NCBI GenBank assembly: GCA_020433835.1 | Contig: JAGRBY010000028.1 | Location: forward strand, 1 to 26,438 | Reading direction: 5' to 3' | Origin: Anaerolineae bacterium | GTDB taxonomy: Bacteria > Chloroflexota > Anaerolineae > 4572-78 > J111 | DNA: 26,438 nucleotides | In this document: in pieces, positions 1,700 to 22,877 of the stretch | How the letters are laid out: every line of letters starts with the position of its first letter | Position numbering within the stretch: the first letter of the stretch is position 1 | Notes under the pieces: generated by a model | What the model was told of the DNA's origin: nothing | Database searches by the model: none | The model's input: only the letters and a program-made list of their open reading frames with translations | Position numbers and translations under genes: made by a program

Positions 1700-2832
1700 T
1701 AGCCGATGAAGGTCAGTAGCGGAATTGACGCCAACCACAACAGCGCATAATTGAGAGTCTTGGTGGCTCGAACCGAAGCGGCGTAAGCCAGAGCGGCCAC
1801 TACCAAGCCGCTGGTCAGGCGGAGTACGCCGGGAAAATCAACATAGGTTGAAAAGGGCAGCGTCGCCAGCATCAGAATGTGCAGGGCCAGCACCAGGGCG
1901 ATGGGCGACAGGTTACCATGCCGAAAAAATCGAACCAGATTGGCGGTTAAGGCCAAACACGGCAGCAAAATCAACGGCCCTAAAATCAGCAGCACAACGA
2001 TGAGTGTTTGCAGGTTATCGAAACCAAAGGCGAACATGCCGCCGAAGGGAAGCCAACTAAACGAGGTCGCCCCCTGTCCGCCGGATCGCAAACCGATTTC
2101 GCCAAAGTTGAGCCAAATAGCCAGTTGTAACAGCGCAAACGGCCCCAAACTGATCAGCCCGGTTTCGACGAGCGTTCGCCACTGCCGCCTCAGGCAATAA
2201 TAAAGCAAATAGCCGCCTATAAACGCCACCGATGTCTCTTTGCTGAGCACACTTAAAGCCAGAAATAACGCACCCCAGCGCGATCGGTCTTTCTCAAAGG
2301 CATAGACAGCTAAAAGCGCGAAGGTGAGCGCGAACGGCTCATTGAGATCGAGCCGCAGGCTAACCAATTGACCGGCAAATAACCCCACCGGCAGCGCGTA
2401 CCAGGGGTTAAGCCGATGCAAAATCAAGAGTCGCGCCATCGTATAGGTGCCAACGGCTAAAGCGACAAGGTTGAGACCCAGCAGCGTCCACGGGATAAGT
2501 TGAGGCCAACCCAAAGCAACCAAACGCGCTGTTAGGGGATAGAGAAGGCGTTGATAGCGATAAGGGGGGATGTCGAGGTAGGGCGTTGCCCCCAGCGGAT
2601 GTAGAGCCATCTGATAAGCAAATTGGCCGTCGTAGCCGATGGTGCCGTTAGGGTCGCCCTGGCCATAGCGGGTACCGAGACGGACGAAGGTCATCGGGTC
2701 CCAGTGGTTAAGCCAAAGAACGATCAGCACATAAGCCAGCGAAACAACCGCCACGCTGAGAGCCGGGATTAAGGCAGGCCGATCAACCGAGAACAAGGCC
2801 GCCGTATGTTGTTTGATATGGCCGGCGGTCAC
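1699..2832 (-). CDS. GYDGQ-motif polytopic membrane protein (copy 1)
   Basis: A 377-aa protein with roughly nine to ten membrane segments. The first large loop carries GYDGQFAYQ (about 66-74), followed by YRYQRLLYPLTARL (about 91-104), LNEP (163-166) and KET (198-200). These motifs are shared almost unchanged with the protein at 20303-21403, so the two are clear paralogues. The acidic loop after the first helix recalls GT-C glycosyltransferases and related surface-glycopolymer membrane proteins, but I cannot name the reaction. The start is GTG at 2832, in a GTGA overlap with the preceding stop and with AAGGAG about eight bases upstream, so this start is well supported. Its own stop overlaps the next start (TAATG). 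It is probably co-translated with both neighbours. Confidence 0.85.
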   Translation of the reverse strand: MTAGHIKQHTAALFSVDRPALIPALSVAVVSLAYVLIVLWLNHWDPMTFVRLGTRYGQGDPNGTIGYDGQFAYQMALHPLGATPYLDIPPYRYQRLLYPLTARLVALGWPQLIPWTLLGLNLVALAVGTYTMARLLILHRLNPWYALPVGLFAGQLVSLRLDLNEPFALTFALLAVYAFEKDRSRWGALFLALSVLSKETSVAFIGGYLLYYCLRRQWRTLVETGLISLGPFALLQLAIWLNFGEIGLRSGGQGATSFSWLPFGGMFAFGFDNLQTLIVVLLILGPLILLPCLALTANLVRFFRHGNLSPIALVLALHILMLATLPFSTYVDFPGVLRLTSGLVVAALAYAASVRATKTLNYALLWLASIPLLTFIG

Positions 2833-4778
2833 GGAGTGTCTCCTTTTAAACAGTCTACCACATAATAATTTTCAGCGTGAAATAAAACGCTCTCGGCGGG
2901 CGGATGGGCCAGCAGAAAGTCATCACGCCCCACAATAGTCGGGGCCAGTTGACTGTGAAAAGGTTCAAAAAATATCTGTTCGTGGCTCAGATGCTGCGTT
3001 GTAAAATCTTCGGTATTGATCAGCAGTTGGCTAACATTGTAACGCCGGCAAAACTCTTCGATAGTTTGCGGATCGGCTGCATAGTAGGCCGTCATAGTAT
3101 TCAAGATTACATCTGAAGAGGGTAAAGGCAAATCGCAGTTAAACAAGACGGCTCGCTGAGCAAAGAGGGGGATGTTATCTAACGTGCAGGCCGAACCGGC
3201 CAGCAGACTGTCTTTGGGCAGAGTTGCCACAAAATCGATCAGGGATCGTTCCGCCGGTTCAACGCGCAGAATATCAACGTAACTGACTAAGGGCGCATAA
3301 AACAGCCAGCCCATAAGAGCACAACCGGCAAAAGCGCCCAGCACTAACCGGCCCGACGGTGAGCCAGTTAATGATGAAGCGGGTTTCTGGTAGGCTTGGG
3401 CAGCGGATCGTCTCCGGCCGGCGATAAAAACTAACCCGGCAAACAGCAAACCGGCTGCGGCCAGCAGCCACTTCATATTCAAACCACCTATCGTCGCCAG
3501 ATTGGAGGGATAGAAAAAGATGAGACCGAGAGCCACTGCGGCTACGCCACCGGCCAGCCAGGGTAAGATGTTCCTATTGGTTCGGAGCGCGGCTACCCCC
3601 TCCTCCAACGTTGCGGCACCGTTCCAGACGATGAACGCCAGACAAAAAAGCAGCAAACTGACACGGGTATAGCGGCTGGGCAGATAGAGCAAAAAAGCGT
3701 CGGCCAGCCAAATAGCCAGCCATGAGAGAACAAAAGCCGCAAATCCGGCCCAGAGCAAACTCCACAAGACGGCGGGCAAAGCCAGTGCTCTCCGGCCTCG
3801 AATGAGCAGCATTAGGATGCCCAGACTGAGCATCAACAGTAGATGCACGCCATCTTCACCATTATTAACCAAGCCACCTCGCCCCACCACAGGAAAGAGG
3901 AAAAAAAGCGGCGTTTTACCACCGGTCTGAAAGACGGGATTATCCCATATATGATTATAAACGGGTGTGGGTTGGTCGGCGATGGGGATAGATTGAGCAG
4001 GAGCTGCCTGAGCCGGGGTAGGAACCACAAAAAAATCGGTAACGAACAAAGGGGCCATCAATAGTATGGCGATGATGCCTGATCCAAGTAATATGGGCAA
4101 ACCACGCTGATGCAGCCAACTCTGCGGACGGGTTCGCGTGGTCCAAAGCGCGGGCAGAGCATAAAAGCCCCAGCAGATCGCCCCCAACAAAAACATCGGA
4201 GCGTAAAGTAACACGCAAACCAGCAGCGTTACGCCGGCGGCCAGGTAGCGCTGCTGGTGCAGATAGTAAACAACCGGAATAATCAACGATAAGGCCCACG
4301 ATCGCTGCAAGCCGGGCAAAATCGAGGTTGAGGAGGGGGAGGCAAGAATGAGCAAGATGAAACCCACAGCCAGCGCAACGCCGGTGGCCCGGTTTTTGGC
4401 ACGAAGACCAAACTGATACAAATAGAGTGCGCTCAGGGGCAGCACAACAAAGGCCAATAGTTTGCTAAAGAGAAGCGGAGTGAAAAAAAAGCTGCCCGTA
4501 TAAAAGAGCAAGCCGTAGCCCAGGCTTGTTAGAATTAAAGGCACGGGTGTACCAAACAAATTGACAGTAACGTAGCTGGCCTGATTGGTAGGATCAATGG
4601 GAAAGAGCGACGGATCATCAAATTTGGTCATCCAATAGTAGCTGCGGAAATCGCCATCGACACGGTAGGGATCGGTTAACTGGGGGAGTTGCAGGTATAG
4701 CACGGCCAGCATTGAAACAACAATTAAGGTGATAGACCAGGAAATCTGTGGGCGGGAGGCATGTTTTATGACGATCAT
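2829..4778 (-). CDS. large GT-C-like membrane protein, tandem paralogue A
   Basis: A 649-aa protein: an N-terminal helix, a loop with VDGDFRSYYWM and LFPIDP (about residues 40-63), a long polytopic core, and a soluble C-terminal domain of about 130 residues. It shares architecture and motifs with the next upstream gene (4794-6650): D-rich loop plus YWM, FPID, GLQR, PLF, then a C-terminal module beginning near FVATLPKDSLLAG. The two look like an old tandem duplication. The layout matches GT-C glycosyltransferases with an extracytoplasmic C-terminal domain, but no specific family is assigned with confidence. The ATG at 4778 has a GGAG about nine bases upstream. It is 15 bases from the preceding stop and overlaps the next gene by 4 bases. 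Confidence 0.8.
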   Translation of the reverse strand: MIVIKHASRPQISWSITLIVVSMLAVLYLQLPQLTDPYRVDGDFRSYYWMTKFDDPSLFPIDPTNQASYVTVNLFGTPVPLILTSLGYGLLFYTGSFFFTPLLFSKLLAFVVLPLSALYLYQFGLRAKNRATGVALAVGFILLILASPSSTSILPGLQRSWALSLIIPVVYYLHQQRYLAAGVTLLVCVLLYAPMFLLGAICWGFYALPALWTTRTRPQSWLHQRGLPILLGSGIIAILLMAPLFVTDFFVVPTPAQAAPAQSIPIADQPTPVYNHIWDNPVFQTGGKTPLFFLFPVVGRGGLVNNGEDGVHLLLMLSLGILMLLIRGRRALALPAVLWSLLWAGFAAFVLSWLAIWLADAFLLYLPSRYTRVSLLLFCLAFIVWNGAATLEEGVAALRTNRNILPWLAGGVAAVALGLIFFYPSNLATIGGLNMKWLLAAAGLLFAGLVFIAGRRRSAAQAYQKPASSLTGSPSGRLVLGAFAGCALMGWLFYAPLVSYVDILRVEPAERSLIDFVATLPKDSLLAGSACTLDNIPLFAQRAVLFNCDLPLPSSDVILNTMTAYYAADPQTIEEFCRRYNVSQLLINTEDFTTQHLSHEQIFFEPFHSQLAPTIVGRDDFLLAHPPAESVLFHAENYYVVDCLKGDTP

Positions 4779-4793
4779 TCAGAATAACTCCAC

Positions 4794-6650
4794 TTATTTG
4801 TTCCCAATCAAGCTCGTGGAACTGCATTCAATTACTCGATAAGGGCCACTACTGTAGATGGAGGGGACGGTAGGTAATAGAAAATCAGTTGGAGGAGTAG
4901 GAGATAATTTTTTGAGGATCTCGCTGTTCCAGGGTTCGTAGAAAAATTTTTGTTTGGTGATAAAATCGGGATCAAATTGAGCCATATTAAGCACCAGATG
5001 CGTAACCTTGTATTTTTGGCAGAAATCCAAAATAACCTGTGGTGATTGGGCATATTGGGCTTCAAAATATTCAGGGATAAAGATGATCGAACTAGGGTTA
5101 GCATGCGGATGCAAATCTCTAAATAAAACACCGCGTTCTGAAAAGAGCGGAATACCGGACATGACAATCGGAGCGCCGGCAAAGATAGCGTCTTTTGGTA
5201 AGGTACTGACAAACTGGTAAATATTTCGCTCATCCGGCGAGGGGTTGATGGGTTTAAGGCTAAGATTGTTGATGTAATAAAAACCCACCAGTAAAGTAAC
5301 GGCAGTGGTAAAAATCAAGATGATGGTTCGAGACGGTTGGGGGGTTTGACGTAACCAATACCAACTACTGCCGCCCAGGAGAGTTACACCCCCTGCACCG
5401 ATAATGGTAAAAAACCACAGCAACGGAATCAGCAGCAGCCGGGAAGGAAACACGCCATAGGCTACCGCTAAAGACAATGCTAACGCCACAAAAAAGAAAA
5501 TGATCTGTGGCCTTTTGCGGTGCACCCAACCGGGAAATTTCTGCAAGAAATCGGGCCAATTGAGACCCACAAAGAGAATCATAAACAGAAAGATTACAGC
5601 CCGGGTATAACGTGAGGGCTGGTATAAGACCGATGATGAGAAACCAACCAACGTAATAAACGAGGCCACGTACATCACCCATCCGGCCGCCAGTAAATAC
5701 CATCCGGCCGCCGGTATACGACGCAGAGCTTGGCGACCGGATAGTTTGAGAATCACCCCGGCAAAAATAGCCAATACAATAAAGTTGACAATATCAGTTC
5801 CCGCATCAAAAATTCCGGCTCGGCCAAACCAGGGAAAACTGATAAAGAGGGGAATAGCACCCTCATCCGAGAAGTTAGGGTCGTTGATAACAGGTAAATC
5901 TTGCGGTTTAACAAAACTTGTATTGGCCGTCAACCCCCAAACCAATACGATGGCGGCTAGTGAAACGGAAACGAAAAAAGGTGCTATTTTTTTCGGGTCA
6001 AGATCTAAAGTAAATTTATAAGGATGCTGCCACTTAATTAAAGAAAAACCATACCCTAATACAGCTAGAGGAAACGCAGGCCAATAAAAAAGACCACTCA
6101 TAAAAATCGTGATTGCCGCAGCCTTGTACCGTTGTTGGGAGAGATAGTAAACAAAGACAATGAGCAACGGAATAATAATCCCTCTTTGTAAACCACTGCC
6201 TATTGAAACAGATTGGTAGGAGGCCAGCATAAAAAAGGTAAAAATGAGGCTTAAGCTGATAGCACTCAATTGATCTCGCAAGGATTCGGCAAGTTTAAAT
6301 AGGTAAATCAGACACAGGGGCAGTAAGATGAGAATTAAAAATTTGGCAAACCAGATAAAGTTTATAAAAAAGCTGGCGACAAAAAAAACAAGACCGTACC
6401 CAAAACTGATAGGGTACAAAGTTAACTTGTACCCAAAGATATCAAGATACGTAAGCCCGCTCACAAAAATATAATCGATTGGAAACAGATCGGTATCTTG
6501 ATAGCGAGCCATCCAATAAAAATTTTGTAAATCTTTGGGAACCTGATACTTATCCCAAAGATGAGGAGCATAAGCGATAAGGGTTAGCCCTATCGAAATA
6601 AAAATTACGGTTAGTAACAGGTTAGGTTGTAGTTTACGAATAGTTACCAT
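4794..6650 (-). CDS. large GT-C-like membrane protein, tandem paralogue B
   Basis: A 618-aa protein parallel to its downstream neighbour: first helix, loop with KDLQNFYWMARY and LFPID (about 39-59), about a dozen membrane segments, then a soluble C-terminal domain starting near FVSTLPKDAIFAGAP. In both proteins the C-terminal domain appears to be an extracytoplasmic alpha/beta module common in bacterial polytopic glycosyltransferases. It is more AT-rich than the copy at 2829-4778, so the duplication is old or one copy arrived separately. An internal 21-bp duplication (5678-5712) encodes two AAGW repeats in one membrane helix. ATG at 6650; no strong ribosome site, 21-base gap to the upstream gene. 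Function inferred only from topology. Confidence 0.8.
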   Translation of the reverse strand: MVTIRKLQPNLLLTVIFISIGLTLIAYAPHLWDKYQVPKDLQNFYWMARYQDTDLFPIDYIFVSGLTYLDIFGYKLTLYPISFGYGLVFFVASFFINFIWFAKFLILILLPLCLIYLFKLAESLRDQLSAISLSLIFTFFMLASYQSVSIGSGLQRGIIIPLLIVFVYYLSQQRYKAAAITIFMSGLFYWPAFPLAVLGYGFSLIKWQHPYKFTLDLDPKKIAPFFVSVSLAAIVLVWGLTANTSFVKPQDLPVINDPNFSDEGAIPLFISFPWFGRAGIFDAGTDIVNFIVLAIFAGVILKLSGRQALRRIPAAGWYLLAAGWVMYVASFITLVGFSSSVLYQPSRYTRAVIFLFMILFVGLNWPDFLQKFPGWVHRKRPQIIFFFVALALSLAVAYGVFPSRLLLIPLLWFFTIIGAGGVTLLGGSSWYWLRQTPQPSRTIILIFTTAVTLLVGFYYINNLSLKPINPSPDERNIYQFVSTLPKDAIFAGAPIVMSGIPLFSERGVLFRDLHPHANPSSIIFIPEYFEAQYAQSPQVILDFCQKYKVTHLVLNMAQFDPDFITKQKFFYEPWNSEILKKLSPTPPTDFLLPTVPSIYSSGPYRVIECSSTSLIGNK

Positions 6651-7648: not shown

Positions 7649-9241
7649 CTACCTTAAGGTTGCTTCGTCTGGAAACTCTATGAAAGCGTCTTCATTTTCG
7701 TTAAATAGGCGGGCAAATGTATTCCGATCCTGTTGATGTATCTCAGCAACTTGTACGCGCTTTAGCAAGATAAACTGATCGTTCTCAAAAATGGGTGCAA
7801 ACTCCTTGTATAAATCAGGTGTTTCCACATCGGGATCAAAGTCGGAAGAAAACACGTTATTTTCTGAGGGAAGGACTACATAATCGGCAATGCCAGCAGG
7901 TGATTTGTTAATGCCTCTAGGATAAGAGGTATATCGATACCCATCAACCCAAGCAACTGCCGTGTAAGGCGGAATGGTAACAACACGCTGTGGTTCAATG
8001 TTTTTCTGCACGTCCACTAAAGCGGGTTCAACATTTTGAATTAACCGGGCGTTATACTTCATAGTTTTTTGCACTATCAGAAAATAAGGAATAGTAAATA
8101 AAAAGAATATAGCCACAGCCCCAACCAACAAAGCCAAATTCAACAATTTTATGCTTGCGATGTCTCGCTTGCCCCCAACACTCATCTGAATCAAAACTGC
8201 CCCAGTCAGCATAATAATTCCGGGAAAATTGTGCCATGTAAAAATTGAGAAATCATACACCAAAAAACTGCTACCCATTTTGGCTAATCCCATTACAAAT
8301 AACGCTACTCCAAATGCATTAATTTGTTTAGTTACCCATATTGCTGCCCCCATAGCAACTAAAAAAAGTACTATGGTAGCCCAATAGGAGGGGAGCAGAT
8401 TACCATAAGGTTCCGGTTGATAAAACAACACAAATGGGCCGCTAACTTTAAGTGAGCTAATAAATTTTTCTGCCAAAAAATCGTTCGTGCGATTAAAGGG
8501 CGTTTGCAAAAACTTTATTGTCCAAAAAGCCAAGACAAGAAAAACAGTTGATCCCGCTAAAAACGTAAAATAAAGGCGTTCTCGCTTCCAAAGAAAAAGG
8601 ACCAAGAAGAATACAATGCTCAGGACGGCCATCTCTTCCTTTAAAGAGATAAATAACCCAAATGAGATTAGCAAACCAATGAATACGGGTTTAGTGCTTG
8701 TCTTATTTAAAGATCGCAACTGATGGTAATGTATTAAAAATATAGTAAAAATAATCGCTAAGAATCCGGCCAGAATATCGGGATGAAATCCGTAAGTTGC
8801 TTCATATAAACCGGGGACAGTTAACCCAAAATTCAATAAAAAAATCACTCCGTAAATTATCCCCTGTCGTTGTCCATTCGTATGTTTAAAGTATAAATAC
8901 GCTGTTATAGCCGATACACCATACACAATAGGGCCAAGTAATATCAGCACATACACCATATTTTCTCTTAACAAGGCCTTTATCGGTAGCAAAAAAAACA
9001 GAAAAAAATACGAATGGTCTCCAAATCCACTCCCATAGGTAAACTCCAAAACAAAGTTTCCTTGTAACGTTTCCTGGAGAATCTGATCGTACATAAACAA
9101 ATCCGATGTGTACTGCCAAAAAATCAACGAATTTATCTTTAAATACGCTACAATAAGGATTATAAAGCCTGTAAGTGCGATAAAGACATAATCAACAATA
9201 CCGAGGCATTTAGGGATACTTGTTAATGAAATTGAGTTCAT
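7649..9241 (-). CDS. DUF2079-like polytopic membrane protein
   Basis: About 530 aa with ten or more membrane segments. Near the N-terminus it has SDLFMYDQILQETLQGNF and then a GDHSYFFLF loop, and further on FHPDILAG and KEEMA, all in the order typical of DUF2079 membrane proteins, which are distant GT-C relatives thought to be surface glycosyltransferases. A hydrophilic C-terminal domain of about 130 residues follows the last helix. The start is uncertain: ATG 9241 (used here), TTG 9259 (the only one with a well-spaced AAGGTG) or GTG 9271. The inverted repeat just upstream may have replaced the original translation signal. Moderately AT-rich. Confidence 0.82.
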   Translation of the reverse strand: MNSISLTSIPKCLGIVDYVFIALTGFIILIVAYLKINSLIFWQYTSDLFMYDQILQETLQGNFVLEFTYGSGFGDHSYFFLFFLLPIKALLRENMVYVLILLGPIVYGVSAITAYLYFKHTNGQRQGIIYGVIFLLNFGLTVPGLYEATYGFHPDILAGFLAIIFTIFLIHYHQLRSLNKTSTKPVFIGLLISFGLFISLKEEMAVLSIVFFLVLFLWKRERLYFTFLAGSTVFLVLAFWTIKFLQTPFNRTNDFLAEKFISSLKVSGPFVLFYQPEPYGNLLPSYWATIVLFLVAMGAAIWVTKQINAFGVALFVMGLAKMGSSFLVYDFSIFTWHNFPGIIMLTGAVLIQMSVGGKRDIASIKLLNLALLVGAVAIFFLFTIPYFLIVQKTMKYNARLIQNVEPALVDVQKNIEPQRVVTIPPYTAVAWVDGYRYTSYPRGINKSPAGIADYVVLPSENNVFSSDFDPDVETPDLYKEFAPIFENDQFILLKRVQVAEIHQQDRNTFARLFNENEDAFIEFPDEATLR

Positions 9242-9274
9242 GGCAACACATAAAATCAAGAAAGATAACACCTT

Positions 9275-13437: not shown

Positions 13438-15255
13438 CTAATTTCCCCTCACTTGTGTAGAAGCCTTAACAAAAACAACTAATGTTTGGGCCTGATTACG
13501 AAAAACCTTTTGAGGAATATAGGTATGCATCTTTGATATAGCCGGTAGGGTGTTACCTAACACATGGTACACAACCACGTCTACATCTTCCGCCTCAGCC
13601 GCAGCCAGGCTCACATTTAACGTGTCTGCTTCGTTACTATCAATATCAATCATATCGACTTCATAGTTGGGCTTCCAGTCAAACTTGGCAAAATAGAAAT
13701 CAAAAAAATATGGATAGTACATGCCCGTAAATTTGATAGTATCCGAATTATGGTTCTCTTTCAACCAGCGCACCGCATCTTCATAAGGATAGTAGTGTTC
13801 GGCAATGTCTGACAGGTAACTACCCCAGAGTGGTTTTTTCGTCCCATCCCAATTGAGCGGAGTCAACACCATATTAATGGCAATAACGGCTCCTGCCAGA
13901 ATTGCCGCCAAAGCGAAACGTTTTTGGCTTAACGTCTGTAACAGATAATAGCTACCAACGATTATTGCCGGAATTAAAAAAAGATTGAATCGACTGTAGC
14001 CTACATAACCGACCTCATCGATTAGATGAAACAGTGCATCGGCAACAAACGTTCCCCCTAAAAATAATAGCACGGTATATTCTTGCTTTATCAACAGCAC
14101 CACAATGCCTATTATAAAGAAAATTAACAAAGGGCTAAACTGTTCGCCAAATGAGCGGAGAATGATCTGATAAAGAGCCGGGTTGAGTAAATTGGAAAAA
14201 TCGGGCGAAAACTCTCGCCAAACGCCAAAATAGTTGCGGTAGAAGAGATAGAGAAACAAAGGAAAGAGTGTACAAAAGGCTACTTTGCTTTCATCAATCA
14301 ATCGAGCCGCTCTAAGCTTTTCTTTCGTTGGCGGCCAAAACTGAACCAGCCCTCGCAGTAGCACAAACGACATCAAAAAAGGCAGCGTTGTCTCTTTGAT
14401 AAAACCGACCAAAATCAGCGCATACCAGGCAGGTTGCGTAGAAATTGTGGACAAATCGCCCCGGATAATCGACTTGATTCGAAAGCAGACCACCGTCATC
14501 AGCACCAAGGCCGGCATCTCCATATACAGGGTAGAACTATAATACCAAATTACGGGGGTTGTAGCCACCGCCAAGCCAAACAGTAAGCCGAGGGGCCATC
14601 CGGCTAATCGCAGTTCTCTTTGGCAAAACCAGGCCAATAGAATTACCGACAAAAACGGAACTATACGATATGTAGCTTCCTCAAACGGTCCAAAAAGCGG
14701 TACTATCACATAAAGCGGCATTACATTCAGCCAGCGGGTAGCGTGCGGATAGCGCAAAACCCAATCAAAATTTGATTGATTATTCCAGACCAGCAGCGCC
14801 ACCATCCCCACTAAAAATACAGCCGAAAAGAGAATTTGCTTGCTCTTACGCCAACCTTCATACAAAAACAGCAATAAAAGTACAGCCGTCACAAGTCCAT
14901 GGAATTTCATTAACCCCCAGACGTTTAAGACGACATTAATGTGATAGTCTTCGTCACCACGCCACGGAATTACAGCGAGCAATGCCCGATAGTTAAGGAT
15001 AATTATGACTGCCCAAAGAATACCTAAGGAAAGATAATGAACCGGTTGGAAATAAATGACGATTGAATTACTGGCAAGATAAGCCCAGGTCAATCCCAAC
15101 AACACCGAGCCTATCAAAAAAAGCGCCTGTTCCCACAGCTTGGTCGAGATTAACCAGTAAGGACTGAGAACATAGGCTACGACAAATATGGCAAAAAGCA
15201 GTGCGAAAACAAGGTGTCGATGTAATTTAATTGGAGATGAGAAATTGAATGCCAT
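13438..15255 (-). CDS. GT39-like integral membrane glycosyltransferase
   Basis: A 605-aa polytopic protein with about a dozen membrane segments and a soluble C-terminal domain of roughly 130 residues (from about 475). The loop PWRGDEDYHINVVLNVWG (about 97-114) has the acidic pair plus His expected of a GT-C active site facing outside. It is not closely similar to the other membrane transferases here, though the layout is the same. Two N-terminal helices precede the acidic loop, more than usual. It probably uses a polyprenyl-linked sugar made by a neighbouring GT2. ATG 15255 with GAGG about 11 bases upstream; 21 bases after the GT2 stop. The 102-base gap downstream contains no clear hairpin terminator. 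Confidence 0.83.
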   Translation of the reverse strand: MAFNFSSPIKLHRHLVFALLFAIFVVAYVLSPYWLISTKLWEQALFLIGSVLLGLTWAYLASNSIVIYFQPVHYLSLGILWAVIIILNYRALLAVIPWRGDEDYHINVVLNVWGLMKFHGLVTAVLLLLFLYEGWRKSKQILFSAVFLVGMVALLVWNNQSNFDWVLRYPHATRWLNVMPLYVIVPLFGPFEEATYRIVPFLSVILLAWFCQRELRLAGWPLGLLFGLAVATTPVIWYYSSTLYMEMPALVLMTVVCFRIKSIIRGDLSTISTQPAWYALILVGFIKETTLPFLMSFVLLRGLVQFWPPTKEKLRAARLIDESKVAFCTLFPLFLYLFYRNYFGVWREFSPDFSNLLNPALYQIILRSFGEQFSPLLIFFIIGIVVLLIKQEYTVLLFLGGTFVADALFHLIDEVGYVGYSRFNLFLIPAIIVGSYYLLQTLSQKRFALAAILAGAVIAINMVLTPLNWDGTKKPLWGSYLSDIAEHYYPYEDAVRWLKENHNSDTIKFTGMYYPYFFDFYFAKFDWKPNYEVDMIDIDSNEADTLNVSLAAAEAEDVDVVVYHVLGNTLPAISKMHTYIPQKVFRNQAQTLVVFVKASTQVRGN

Positions 15256-17029: not shown

Positions 17030-18904
17030 TTATTTTTTAAAGTTGAACCATTCGGACATGAGTACACCTAACGCCGGAAAGATGCTGGTAGCCACTTGCA
17101 AATATGTACTAAAATCTGGTTTGAGGAATTCAACCGTTGGAATCTCAGCTACACGCCAGCCGTCTTTGAGCGCTCGGATCGATAGCCGGTAATAGCGGGT
17201 TAAAGTGTAGCCCGGTAATGTTAAGCTTGCCAACTTTGAGCGTTTGATAGCACGCAAATCGCTGAAGTAATCGGTCAAATTGCCGTAAAATAGCAGGTTA
17301 GCCAGCAGGCTAAAAACCCGGTTACCAACACTCCGGTAGCGACTCATTTGCTGGAGGTTACGCCGTTCACCACCAACCGTAAATCGAGAAGCCACCACCA
17401 TATCGTTCCCGCGTTCCAAATTCAACAGCAAGCGGCCAACATCACTGGGGTTGTGCCGACCATCGGCTGTGAAGAAAATTAGATTTTCCTGGGTGATTTC
17501 AAGGCGTCCTGTCAATAATAAATCGAGCGTATCCAGCGTGTTGCTTTGAATTAATTCAATACCGTGTTTTTCAATGAATGCTTTTGCTTCATTATTTAAA
17601 TCGTGATGAACAGCCACCACCCGATCAAATAAATCGAGCGGTATCACCTCTAGAGCTTGCTCAATAGAGGCCGGACGAACAGCAGCAATAACCAAACAAG
17701 CTCCGGCTCGCGGAGCGCTGGGTCGTTGTCGAAAAAACCGCTCAAACAGTTCCGCCATATAATCCAGATCAAACTCGGTCAGACCCTGATGGCTGGCAAT
17801 ATAGAAACCGTTTTGGTTGACCCATTTAGCGACCGGATATTGATCCTCGCACCAATTTAAGAGATGGTGGTAAACCGGCTGGTTGGTGAGCGGCAGCATA
17901 TCGCGTGTCTCGACGCCGTTTTGCTCGAGAAAATTAACCAGCTCCGTCTTCGGTTCATCGCGCAACACGATTGGAAACATCATAAACGAATGTTCGTTGC
18001 CGGGTCGAGTTTTGGGTAGTTGCAAATAACCATCAAGATGAGCCAGCTTTTGAATAAGCAGCCGTGCATTCGCCCGCCGCGCGGCAATCATCGCCTCAGA
18101 CTCTTCCAACTGAGCCAGCCCTAGTGCCGCCTCCATTTCGGTTACACGGAAGCTGTGGCCTACGCTCACAAAACTAAAACGTCGGGCGACAATCATCTTC
18201 AACTCTTCATCCGACTTATCTTTATCATCATCAATGCTAATGTAAATTGAGTCTCGGCCGTGATTCATCAAAGAGCGCATCCGCACAGCGTATTCCGGAT
18301 CATTTGTTGTATTAAAACCACCCACACCGGTCACCAAAATATGGGCCACGTAGGTGGAAAAACAGCCAATATCCCCCAAACTACCCACCCGTCGGTTCTG
18401 GTATGAAGCAAACATGGTTTCCGCCGAGTCTTCAATAACCTTCAAATTGTAGCGGCTGGCAATAGCGCAAATGGGTCCCATATCGGCGGGCTGTCCAAAT
18501 AAATGCACCGGAATGATGGCCCGTGTACGCGGAGTGATCTTCGCTTCTAACTGACTGGGATCAAGTTCGTAATAATGAGGGTCGACATCGACCAAAACCG
18601 GCATCAATTGGTTATGCAGCACAATGTTAGCCGTGGCAACAAACGTAACCGCCGGCACAATAACTTCATCACCATCTGCCCAGCCATGGAGTTCTTTCAT
18701 AGCTTGTAGTGCAATTTGTAAGGCACTTGTGCCACTGTTAGACATAATACCAAAACGACAGTGATGGAGACTGGCAAACTCACTCTCTAAGCGCTGCATC
18801 ATTGGACCGTAAGAAAGTCGGTTGTTATTGAGCGCTTCCATAACCAGTGCTTTAGCCCGAGGGCTAATATTTAAAGTTCCTACGCCTATAACCGGAGGTT
18901 TCAT
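17030..18904 (-). CDS. fusion: DegT/DnrJ/EryC1/StrS-like PLP domain (Lys replaced by His) + degenerate GT2-like domain
   Basis: A 624-aa protein, far longer than a typical sugar aminotransferase (~380). Residues 1-390 show the DegT/StrS fold: NSGTSALQIALQA (56-68), PAVTFVATANIVL (84-96), IEDSAE (157-162, with the PLP-pairing Asp159) and GSLGDIGCFSTYVAHILVTG. Where the Schiff-base Lys should be there is His188, as in the ColD/RfbH sugar 3-dehydratases, so transamination is unlikely and a dehydratase or other role is possible. After a linker (about 393-400), residues 401-624 resemble the GT2 at 15277-16041 (ASRF, D-x4-RAIKR, EIPTVE), but the VDDGS motif is absent and the DAD is TAD at 479-481. 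Start supported by AAGGAG about nine bases upstream of ATG 18904. Confidence 0.88.
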   Translation of the reverse strand: MKPPVIGVGTLNISPRAKALVMEALNNNRLSYGPMMQRLESEFASLHHCRFGIMSNSGTSALQIALQAMKELHGWADGDEVIVPAVTFVATANIVLHNQLMPVLVDVDPHYYELDPSQLEAKITPRTRAIIPVHLFGQPADMGPICAIASRYNLKVIEDSAETMFASYQNRRVGSLGDIGCFSTYVAHILVTGVGGFNTTNDPEYAVRMRSLMNHGRDSIYISIDDDKDKSDEELKMIVARRFSFVSVGHSFRVTEMEAALGLAQLEESEAMIAARRANARLLIQKLAHLDGYLQLPKTRPGNEHSFMMFPIVLRDEPKTELVNFLEQNGVETRDMLPLTNQPVYHHLLNWCEDQYPVAKWVNQNGFYIASHQGLTEFDLDYMAELFERFFRQRPSAPRAGACLVIAAVRPASIEQALEVIPLDLFDRVVAVHHDLNNEAKAFIEKHGIELIQSNTLDTLDLLLTGRLEITQENLIFFTADGRHNPSDVGRLLLNLERGNDMVVASRFTVGGERRNLQQMSRYRSVGNRVFSLLANLLFYGNLTDYFSDLRAIKRSKLASLTLPGYTLTRYYRLSIRALKDGWRVAEIPTVEFLKPDFSTYLQVATSIFPALGVLMSEWFNFKK

Positions 18905-20302: not shown

Positions 20303-21403
20303 TCATCCGGCAACGCCGTTGATCAGCAGAACATTGGTAAAAATCCAAAAGACGCTGTAGTTAAGAATACGTCGCGAGCGCCGCCAAGCGCCAAAAAGGA
20401 GCATCGCGGCCATTAAGCCCATAGTCAGGCGCAGCATGGCTACCGGCTCGCGAAATGTAGAGGTCGGCAGAAATAACACGACAACGCTGTTAAGCAGCAA
20501 ACACAATACAAAGGGATGAAGTTGTCGCCACCATAGTGTTCGTAAACTTAACCACAGTCCGGCGATACTCGGCAAAATCGACATGGGGCCGACCACCAAT
20601 GAAATGATAAGGAACGCGCCTACGCTCACCCCGGCAATCGCCAGCCAGCCGGCCAGCGGCACCGGGCTAAACGGTGTGGCCCCCGCGCCCCCTGACCCTA
20701 CGCCAAAACTACCGAGCCACCCCCACAGAAAAAATTGATAAATGACAAACGGTATCGCCGCTAAACCCAATCGAAAAGTCCAGCCCCACATCCTCTGGGA
20801 AAGGGTGTACAGCATATAAGCTGCCAAAAAAACCAGCGTGGTTTCTTTACCCAACGCCGCTAACGCAAAGGCCCCGACCGCCCACCATCGACGTTCTCTG
20901 GCCCAGGCCAACATCGCCAATTGAACAAAGGCGTGAGCCAGAGGCTCGTTCAAATCGGCCCGGAGCGAGAGAAGTTGCCCGCCGTACAAACCATACACCA
21001 GGGCATACCAACGGCTTACGCGCAGGTGTAACAGAAGCTGTTCCGTAGCCCACGTTCCCAGCGCCATCGCGCCGATGTTGATAACGATCAGCGTCCACGG
21101 GATCAAGCCTGATTGCCCAAAGGCCAACAATCGCGCTGTCAGCGGATACAAAATACGCTGGTAGCGATAGGCCGGCACATCGATATAGGGTGCAGCCCCG
21201 CTTGGATTGAGCGCGATTTGATAGGCAAACTGCCCGTCGTAACCTTCGCTGCCTTTGGGAGCGCTCTCACTGAAGCGAGTTCCCAACAGAATAAAAGCTT
21301 TGGGGTCGCCATTGTTAACCAACAAAATGCCCGCTACGTAGATCAAACTGATGAGCACAACTATAACCGTTGGTGTTATTAATTTTTGGTTGAGCAAGTT
21401 CAT
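20303..21403 (-). CDS. GYDGQ-motif polytopic membrane protein (copy 2)
   Basis: About 366 aa, with the same motif series as the protein at 1699-2832: GYDGQFAYQ, PAYRYQRILYPLTARL, LNEP and GKET, with nine to ten membrane segments and no soluble C-terminal domain. The two copies sit on either side of the central biosynthetic block. The acidic GYDGQ loop after the first helix suggests a GT-C-like or glycopolymer-forming membrane protein; the reaction is unknown. I chose ATG 21403, which follows the upstream stop by one base (TGATATG) with GAG about nine bases before it; a GTG at 21415 would add four residues. It ends just before the 366-bp gap and so is probably last in its operon. Confidence 0.85.
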   Translation of the reverse strand: MNLLNQKLITPTVIVVLISLIYVAGILLVNNGDPKAFILLGTRFSESAPKGSEGYDGQFAYQIALNPSGAAPYIDVPAYRYQRILYPLTARLLAFGQSGLIPWTLIVINIGAMALGTWATEQLLLHLRVSRWYALVYGLYGGQLLSLRADLNEPLAHAFVQLAMLAWARERRWWAVGAFALAALGKETTLVFLAAYMLYTLSQRMWGWTFRLGLAAIPFVIYQFFLWGWLGSFGVGSGGAGATPFSPVPLAGWLAIAGVSVGAFLIISLVVGPMSILPSIAGLWLSLRTLWWRQLHPFVLCLLLNSVVVLFLPTSTFREPVAMLRLTMGLMAAMLLFGAWRRSRRILNYSVFWIFTNVLLINGVAG

Positions 21404-21404
21404 A

Positions 21405-22877
21405 TCAAGGCTCACGCTTTAAATCATATAAATAGAGCTGGATCGAGCCCCAATCTGCCATCATCACGTGGGGATAAGTTTGGTCGAGCGTTTTTTGAAG
21501 ATCAAGCTGGGCCTCATCGACATAACCGGGCATGACGGTCAACCACAGGCGATCCGCGTCGGCAGTGGCTTCGCGCCAATCGACAATATCGCCACCAAAA
21601 AGACGATGGGTGGTTGGCCCGGTAAAAGTTGCGCCAGGCACATCGATCACTTTCTGCGGGATGGCTGTATACCACAACGCCGGCAGGCCGGAGGCCTCTT
21701 GCAAATGCAAACTTACGTCGCCGGGAGCAAAACCGGACTCGATAGTTTGCACGGCGGTTCTGATCGGCGGTTTGGCCGGATCAGGGGTAGTGTAATGGGT
21801 GACTAATGTAACAACAACCGGAAAGAGCAGCGCGGTCAGAAAGTAAGGGGTGGGTGAGATCTTGGGAGCAGCCGTACTGCCACGGGCCAACAGCAGGATC
21901 AAAGCCGGTGATGTGACGGCAAATGAGCGTTCAACGTAAATCGAGCGGGGAGACAAGAGCGATATGGTCATTACGGTAACGAGAGGCGTCAAGAGACTTA
22001 ACCACAGCGCCAATTCAAAACGATGGGGCTGGCTTGCACGCCGCCGCGATTCCCACGCCGTTAAAATTAAGATGGCTAAAAGCAGAAAAAGCGCAATCGG
22101 TACCACCCAAATGGGAGCGCGATGGCCAAACAGCAGATAGTAGATGGTTGTTAGGGGCGACAAAATACTCGGCGCAGCTTGCCAGGCCTCACCGCCCAGG
22201 TAAGTGGTGGTGCGGGTTAAGGCTTGTGTAGCTTGAGGCAAAAACAATAAGCCAATTAGAGCATCGGCTATAACCAGAAAAATGAACTTTGACGGATACA
22301 TCCGAACGTTAAATAGCCACCAAAGATGCAAACCAATCAATAAAAAAGCGGTAAAATAGTGAACGTACAGCCCAAAAGCGGCCACAAAAATATAGCCAAT
22401 CCAGGCTAGCCACGCTTTGTCGGCTACGACAGCATACAGAAAAAGCCACATTATTGCAATGGCTAACAAGACGATCAAGCTGTACATGCGCACTTCTTGG
22501 GCAAAATAAACTTGAAAAGGCGCTATCGCCATAGCTACGGCGGCTACTGCGGCCGTAGGTTCATCGAACAGCCAATTAGCAAAGCCATAGATCAACCCAA
22601 TTGCGCCGACGCTAAACAAGGCCGATAAGGAGCGCACGGCAACCTCATTGTCTCCTAACGCAAGCCAGAAGTGCAAAAGCAGATAGTAACCGGGGGGATG
22701 AACTCCATGCGGCGCGTTGGCTAAAATTTGAGCTAAACTCAGGCGGGCAGTTAAGGTACTGAACGTTTCATCGTACCATAAGCTAGACGATCCAATGCAA
22801 GCCCATCGCAGACCGGCACCAATAGTCAAGGCAGCGATCAAGATGAGTCTCGGATGTTGTGACAGCCAAGCTTTCAT
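21405..22877 (-). CDS. GT39/ArnT-like integral membrane glycosyltransferase
   Basis: A 490-aa protein with about a dozen membrane segments. The first loop has SSLWYDETFS with Asp36-Glu37, the acidic pair of PMT/GT39 enzymes, then HPPGYY (60-65) and FAQEVRMYSL (around 125-134), the usual succession of PMT_2-type proteins. A soluble C-terminal domain of about 120 residues follows (from about 368, PIRTAVQTIESGFAPGDV). It is a paralogue of the adjacent gene at 22917-24425, with the same motifs and domain layout. It probably transfers sugars from polyprenyl phosphate to an outer-face acceptor. ATG 22877 has AAGGGA about ten bases upstream. One base separates its stop from the next start. Confidence 0.88.
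   Translation of the reverse strand: MKAWLSQHPRLILIAALTIGAGLRWACIGSSSLWYDETFSTLTARLSLAQILANAPHGVHPPGYYLLLHFWLALGDNEVAVRSLSALFSVGAIGLIYGFANWLFDEPTAAVAAVAMAIAPFQVYFAQEVRMYSLIVLLAIAIMWLFLYAVVADKAWLAWIGYIFVAAFGLYVHYFTAFLLIGLHLWWLFNVRMYPSKFIFLVIADALIGLLFLPQATQALTRTTTYLGGEAWQAAPSILSPLTTIYYLLFGHRAPIWVVPIALFLLLAILILTAWESRRRASQPHRFELALWLSLLTPLVTVMTISLLSPRSIYVERSFAVTSPALILLLARGSTAAPKISPTPYFLTALLFPVVVTLVTHYTTPDPAKPPIRTAVQTIESGFAPGDVSLHLQEASGLPALWYTAIPQKVIDVPGATFTGPTTHRLFGGDIVDWREATADADRLWLTVMPGYVDEAQLDLQKTLDQTYPHVMMADWGSIQLYLYDLKREP

Follow-up and report, generated by a model that had tools for sequence, protein, structure and literature searches.

We analysed a 26,438-nucleotide contig of an Anaerolineae bacterium (JAGRBY010000028.1, assembly GCA_020433835.1; hereafter the window) and found that one open reading frame (ORF) on its minus strand (17030..18904) encodes a 624-aa fusion of a His-type DegT/StrS domain with a degenerate glycosyltransferase family 2 (GT2) domain. 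The first half (residues 1-393; 17726..18904, minus strand) has the DegT/StrS fold and is predicted to be a GDP-4-keto-sugar 3-dehydratase; the second (residues 396-624; 17033..17719, minus strand) is a pseudo-GT2 domain, here called GT2L. The folds, the active-site His, the loss of the donor site, the retention of the acceptor site and the gene order can be read directly in the sequence, and from them we infer activity, docking and channelling: through its pseudo-glycosyltransferase half the ColD-like dehydratase would be held on the lipid carrier, next to an active sister GT2, an explanation that we consider somewhat likelier to be right than wrong. The fusion protein looks bifunctional and yet is probably mono-catalytic.

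Pfam PF01041 matches the DegT half (residues 17-385, E 6.1e-92) and PF00535 the GT2 half (residues 471-558, E 1.2e-6). To the listed homologues we applied a length threshold of 580 aa: 116 of the 120 are at least that long and align over both halves, and together with the query they make up our 117-protein alignment. One of the remaining four, P0041, is a fragment of 376 aa with the same sequence as the gene in the window. The closest of the matches listed, at 92% identity, comes from an Anaerolineae metagenome-assembled genome. Because the same fused gene recurs in so many assemblies, a sequencing or assembly error that joined two genes, a concern attached to an earlier note on this DNA, is ruled out. 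For gene neighbourhoods we used 80 loci from 155 relatives, which with the window give 81 (15 fused and 66 unfused); the loci were retrieved with two other peptide patterns, so that the His motif did not serve as a query. Genes above 560 aa were counted as fused, and L030, a fused gene cut by its contig end, therefore counts as unfused; L018 is likewise truncated where its contig ends. Neighbours were counted with a similarity-guided gene caller that replaced a crude caller without a match in 13 of the 80 loci. Going by record titles, the 14 fused loci outside the window span at least nine phyla, and three of these loci carry no phylum name.

The second half has the GT-A fold of the polyprenyl-phosphate GT2 branch (DPMS/GtrB/ArnC). 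For the fold search it was folded alone, as DegT chains fill the match list of the whole-protein model; its predicted model has helices at residues 523-539 and 598-623. The donor site of this domain is lost. His433-His434 (17603..17608, minus strand) occupy the place where the donor-binding pair D38-D39 (VDD/VDGG) is expected, and the donor/metal motif, DADLQH in the dolichyl-phosphate mannose synthase PfDPMS, has degenerated to TADGRH (residues 479-484; 17453..17470, minus strand). The earlier note had both VDDGS and the DxD lost, which for the DxD is too strong: TADGRH lacks only the first Asp, and at the position of the second, 75 of the 117 proteins have Asp and 34 have Asn. Between zero and four of the six donor/metal residues (E12, D38, D39, D91, Q93, R202) are kept in each of the 117. 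The proposal that this half is non-catalytic is well supported by these counts, and we regard it as very probable.

The lipid-phosphate site, in contrast, is kept. In PfDPMS the lipid-phosphate residues are Arg117, Arg131 and Ser135, of which Arg117 also touches the donor mannose (excerpt of PMC5526996). Their equivalents, all on the minus strand, are Arg507 (codon 17384..17386; Arg in 117/117), Arg524 (17333..17335; Arg in 116/117) and, at the Ser135 position, Asn528 (17321..17323; Asn in 116/117, and also in all 16 neighbouring GT2s described below). Counting Asn at that position, 115 of the 117 proteins retain 3/3 of these residues. Ranked by conservation among the 229 GT2L columns, the lipid-phosphate positions come 2, 9 and 10, versus 56 to 227 for the donor positions. 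Asp545 is invariant in GT2L (117/117), and the equivalent of PfDPMS K178 is kept neither in GT2L nor in the neighbour GT2s. Since the nucleotide/metal site is lost while the lipid-phosphate site is kept, the most likely role of GT2L would be to dock the dehydratase on polyprenyl phosphate, the lipid carrier, and we hold this docking to be fairly likely.

An intact relative of GT2L lies nearby. P0124 (15277..16041, minus strand), the sister of the pseudo-GT2, is a GT2 of the polyprenyl-phosphate type in which both donor and acceptor residues are intact. It was examined together with the GT2s neighbouring the dehydratase genes, 16 in all, chosen for scoring at least 140 bits against the window's GT2, lying within four genes and being shorter than 330 aa; fused loci contributed 11 of them and unfused loci 5. 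A GT2 tree of 71 rows unites the 29 pseudo-GT2 rows (support 98). The group nearest to them is that of the 16 neighbour GT2s (itself supported at 81), and a split with support 98 sets both apart from 26 other, “far” GT2 rows, among which the window's other GT2 is present twice. That the neighbour GT2s form one group is partly built in, because they were picked by similarity, but the placing of GT2L beside them is not. The earlier note saw in GT2L the scaffold of P0124; the motifs of P0124, VDGGS and SPDGNE, are themselves non-classical. Among the 16, S-P-D-G-N-E and D38 are found in 16/16 and G39 in 15/16; the donor residues are 6/6 in 15 and 5/6 in one, and the lipid-phosphate residues 3/3 in all. 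GT2L is probably a dead duplicate of P0124, judging from this relationship, and we see about an even chance that it also partners with the intact enzyme as a subunit.

A sister-type GT2 (at least 110 bits) lies within four genes in 13/15 fused vs 8/66 unfused loci (Fisher p 4.5e-8, a value that overstates the difference because the genomes are related to each other), and in 13/14 vs 7/47 when only loci with at least two genes on each side are considered. All 13 sister-type GT2s of fused loci, including those of L001 and L011, keep 6/6 donor residues; the L001 enzyme is a weak match (112 bits) on the opposite strand with Thr at the Arg131 position. The two exceptions are L006, where an intact sister-type GT2 lies five genes from the fusion, and L009, where one is on another contig of the genome (230.8 bits). 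The capture or channelling of substrate to the membrane that the earlier note had suggested gains from the kept lipid-phosphate site and the intact GT2 nearby, and is still a proposal rather than an observation.

Three findings weigh against the docking explanation. L010, L014 and L016 stand inside the fused clade and yet lack the second domain, ending after the DegT fold; we read them from their sequences as natural loss of the pseudo-GT2. GT2L is also less conserved, with a median identity to the window of 40% vs 71% for the DegT half (n=116). Finally, a gene resembling GMD (GDP-mannose 4,6-dehydratase) occurs within four genes in only 1/15 fused loci. The absence of GT2L from three loci and its faster evolution favour a plain soluble 3-dehydratase in which GT2L is only a structural or oligomerisation appendage that binds no lipid, as does the good match of soluble GT2s to the GT2L fold. 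Such an appendage is hard to reconcile with lipid-phosphate positions ranking 2, 9 and 10 of 229 when the donor positions rank 56 to 227, and with the presence of GT2L in loci of nine named phyla, mostly with an intact sister GT2 nearby; we consider it unlikely, though worth serious attention. L010 and L016 each have an intact GT2 directly downstream of the single-domain dehydratase.

The DegT half has the aspartate-aminotransferase-type DegT fold, and its best match in both sequence and fold is GDP-perosamine synthase. His188 (codon 18341..18343, minus strand), which sits within CFSTYVAHILVTGVGG, takes the place of the Schiff-base Lys of GDP-perosamine synthase 3bn1 in the alignment and coincides with the His found in ColD and RfbH. 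Asp159 (codon 18428..18430, minus strand) is the same residue in ColD, RfbH and 3bn1; we take it, from the fold type I literature, to pair with the pyridine nitrogen of pyridoxal 5′-phosphate (PLP). Both residues are invariant in the 117 aligned proteins and in the main genes of all 81 loci, which confirms the His and Asp assignments of the earlier note, made without naming the strand. The Schiff-base Lys of DegT/StrS sugar aminotransferases is found in none of the 117, and a chance His, or a Lys at this site in relatives, is ruled out. According to an excerpt of PMC8987622, this Lys-to-His change is the most important difference between 3-dehydratases and aminotransferases.

The cysteine-rich iron–sulfur (Fe-S) loop of E1 is missing, and with it the four cysteines that mark the E1/SpnQ subgroup as [2Fe-2S] enzymes: in loop 214-246 three Cys occur in 0/117 aligned proteins, and two Cys in 0/66 unfused ones. 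Membership of the E1/RfbH group is ruled out by these absent cysteines, though some other residues match RfbH and not ColD (Phe88, Tyr185, Ala187, Arg217, Asp218). Those that match ColD and not RfbH are Glu162, Arg253, Glu256 and His372-Gln373; Glu162, Arg253 and His372 are also present in perosamine synthase. In a quick maximum-likelihood DegT tree (107 rows, arbitrary root), the 24 fused and 66 unfused rows form one clade (Shimodaira–Hasegawa-like approximate likelihood ratio test, SH-aLRT, 99). A further split (SH-aLRT 91) places this clade together with ColD, two RfbH, two RfbH-like and one Solidesulfovibrio protein, opposite 11 Lys-type rows. ColD joins the RfbH rows beside the fusion's clade on a long branch, and the deep branching order is unsure because of several long branches, those of ColD and the Solidesulfovibrio row among them. 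Clade members, fused or unfused, occur in bacteria and archaea; the unfused dehydratase is found in 15 loci whose titles are archaeal (e.g. L017, L019, L021, L022, L024, L047 and L076-L080).

Genes for nucleotide-sugar chemistry surround the dehydratase in the window and its relatives. P0122 (16038..17012, minus strand) is a short-chain dehydrogenase/reductase (SDR) of the ColC/GDP-L-fucose-synthase type, its nearest relatives being GDP-L-fucose synthases (GFS). It keeps the equivalents of E. coli GFS Ser107, Cys109, Tyr136, Lys140 and His179, of which Cys109 and His179 are presumably the C/H dyad in that numbering. Roles for Ser107, Tyr136, Lys140 and a C/H dyad are given in an excerpt of PMC7949155. 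A second SDR, P0123 (18932..19936, minus strand), has 6vo6/6vo8 as its nearest solved relative (176 bits; the next scores 105 bits). We take 6vo6/6vo8 to be Cj1427, a GDP-heptose C4-dehydrogenase; looking for papers under these codes gave only an unrelated one. The excerpt of PMC7949155 cites a Cj1427 structure without its code. Relatives of P0123 adjoin the fusion in L004 (364 bits) and lie near it in L006 (148 bits); with the window these make 3/15 fused loci with a Cj1427-like SDR within four genes (1/66 unfused), too few to build on.

At the same distance, Fcl/ColC-like SDRs accompany 11/15 fused and 20/66 unfused dehydratases. A GMD-like gene (at least 100 bits) is within four genes of the unfused dehydratase in 21/66 loci, in 12 of these immediately upstream on the same strand and scoring at least 250 bits; in the window, P0123 and P0122 are present but GMD is not. 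Whether a fused genome encodes GMD anywhere is uninformative (9/14 vs 6/14 controls). In E. coli O55, colD overlaps a gene annotated as GDP-L-fucose synthase family (the Fcl-like colC), with gmd in the same cluster, and an excerpt of PMC10440746 describes its C3-dehydratase as characterised. This context points to GDP rather than dTDP sugars. In L048, L055, L060, L065, L068 and L072 the next gene after the unfused dehydratase belongs to cluster c8 (median 424 aa); judged by eye it resembles a sugar-pathway C-methyltransferase, which suggests branched sugars.

Because of His188, the missing Fe-S cysteines, the grouping on the ColD/RfbH side and the GMD-like and ColC/Fcl-like neighbours, ColD-type 3-dehydration of a GDP-4-keto sugar is the best-supported assignment of the DegT half, in line with the ColD-like dehydratase of the earlier note, and on these sequence grounds we are highly confident of it. 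The note's wording that such enzymes use PLP without transamination as such is loose: ColD uses pyridoxamine 5′-phosphate (PMP), which is regenerated by transamination with glutamate (excerpt of PMC8987622).

The kept lipid-phosphate site also admits a reading in which the dehydratase acts on a polyprenyl-phosphate-linked 4-keto sugar presented by GT2L, so that C3 would be deoxygenated on the lipid carrier and not on the nucleotide sugar, an arrangement for which DprE1/DprE2 offer an analogy. The phosphate of the product Dol-P-Man is held in PfDPMS by residues that GT2L has retained (excerpt of PMC5526996), and the cluster contains both an intact GT2 and GT-C type (PMT_2) enzymes. If this were so, the window would yield a 3-deoxy sugar with its 6-hydroxyl intact, since a Cj1427-like C4-dehydrogenase, rather than a 4,6-dehydratase, would supply the 4-keto group. 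We find it improbable: not one DegT position separates fused from unfused proteins (at least 90% in fused, below 30% the same residue in unfused), and the unfused relatives accompany nucleotide-sugar genes, so that the substrate is probably the same GDP sugar.

Slightly less probable still is a 4-aminotransferase or other PLP chemistry with a re-purposed His form; the match to GDP-perosamine synthase and the transamination by SpnQ in the absence of its reductase (excerpt of PMC8987622) speak for it, and the Lys-to-His replacement throughout the 117 proteins and 81 genes, in a clade on the side of the His types, speaks against it. That GT2L still transfers sugars through a changed donor site, as the second Asp kept in 75/117 and the invariant D545 might suggest, is very improbable, given that none of the 117 keeps more than 4/6 donor residues and that the equivalents of Glu12, Asp39 and Arg202 are scattered.

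Under the docking explanation, the 4-keto group may be introduced in the window by the C4-dehydrogenase-like SDR P0123. The DegT half, as a ColD-type, Fe-S-free 3-dehydratase dependent on PMP and glutamate, would then convert the GDP-4-keto sugar and PMP into a ketimine, with His188 taking the C4′ proton and the C3 hydroxyl leaving, and hydrolysis would yield a GDP-3-deoxy-4-keto sugar, steps modelled on ColD and E1. P0122 would epimerise and reduce this product, and the intact P0124 would load the sugar onto polyprenyl phosphate. GT2L, which may be a partner subunit of P0124, would bind polyprenyl phosphate at the membrane, whereby the reactive 4-keto-3-deoxy intermediate would be made and used on the spot.

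The genes for these steps lie in a tight run: the fusion gene follows P0123 at a distance of 27 bp and precedes P0122 by 17 bp, and the P0122 and P0124 genes overlap by 4 bp. The other window genes include GT-C type (PMT_2), GT2 and GT4 enzymes, a flippase-like protein and a methyltransferase, and the gene set as a whole is that of a surface-glycan cluster. On either side of the cluster lies a member of the AZOBR_p60025 family (cell surface glycopolymer formation) that exceeds the NCBIfam cut-off (1699-2832 and 20303-21415). Neither Pfam nor NCBIfam gave a match at E 0.001 for five long ORFs of the glycan cluster (540-649 aa; 80-1738, 2829-4778, 4794-6650, 7649-9271 and 13438-15255).

Neither the dehydratase chemistry nor the GT2 fold is new. 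Searches of open-licence PMC papers brought up no description of such a dehydratase fused to a GT2 that has lost its donor site and kept its acceptor site, beside an intact paralogue. To ColD and E1/RfbH these proteins add another clade of His-type sugar 3-dehydratases, found in archaeal and many uncultured bacterial genomes, and they point to 3-deoxy sugars among lineages with poorly known surface glycans; the fusion suggests production of a rare sugar at the very site of its loading onto the membrane. As the loss of the donor site and the strict keeping of the acceptor site are readable from the sequence, lipid-carrier channelling is testable with three point mutations.

Among known systems, ColD, the GDP-4-keto-6-deoxy-D-mannose 3-dehydratase, shares with the fusion the DegT fold, the His at the Lys position, the lack of Fe-S cysteines, Glu162/Arg253/Glu256/His-Gln and a ColC/Fcl-like SDR neighbour, but it is only 24% identical and lies outside the fusion's clade; the E. 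coli O55 protein has 388 aa and no GT2 domain. E1/RfbH, the CDP-4-keto-6-deoxyglucose 3-dehydrases, carry the cysteine-rich Fe-S loop that the fusion's clade lacks. The Solidesulfovibrio magneticus plasmid pDMC1 (L083:3992-5197) encodes another DegT protein of the His type, with the motif FSLYVAHII and a loop rich in cysteine (GCSCPSC...YC); its gene adjoins one for GDP-L-fucose synthase, with a thiamine-pyrophosphate-dependent E1 gene and a transketolase-type gene nearby, and it is possibly the Fe-S 3-dehydratase of another deoxy-sugar pathway. Dolichyl-phosphate mannose synthase, ArnC and GtrB are polyprenyl-phosphate GT2 enzymes with a donor/metal site, whereas GT2L has lost that site and is fused to a PLP enzyme. 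The closest parallel in step order is the C3-dehydratase of Campylobacter HS:5, a PLP enzyme which, acting after Cj1427, gives GDP-3-deoxy-4-keto-heptose in vitro with PLP and glutamate (excerpt of PMC10680097). Its sequence of C4 oxidation, PLP/Glu 3-dehydration and C4 reduction matches the window genes; the non-6-deoxy product came from an in vitro combination of separate enzymes, and the excerpts of PMC10680097 and PMC10440746 mention no GT2 domain. Because P0123, the fusion and P0122 fit that order, the window looks, by analogy, like a natural version of the Cj1427/HS:5 route, in which the sugar may be a hexose or a heptose.
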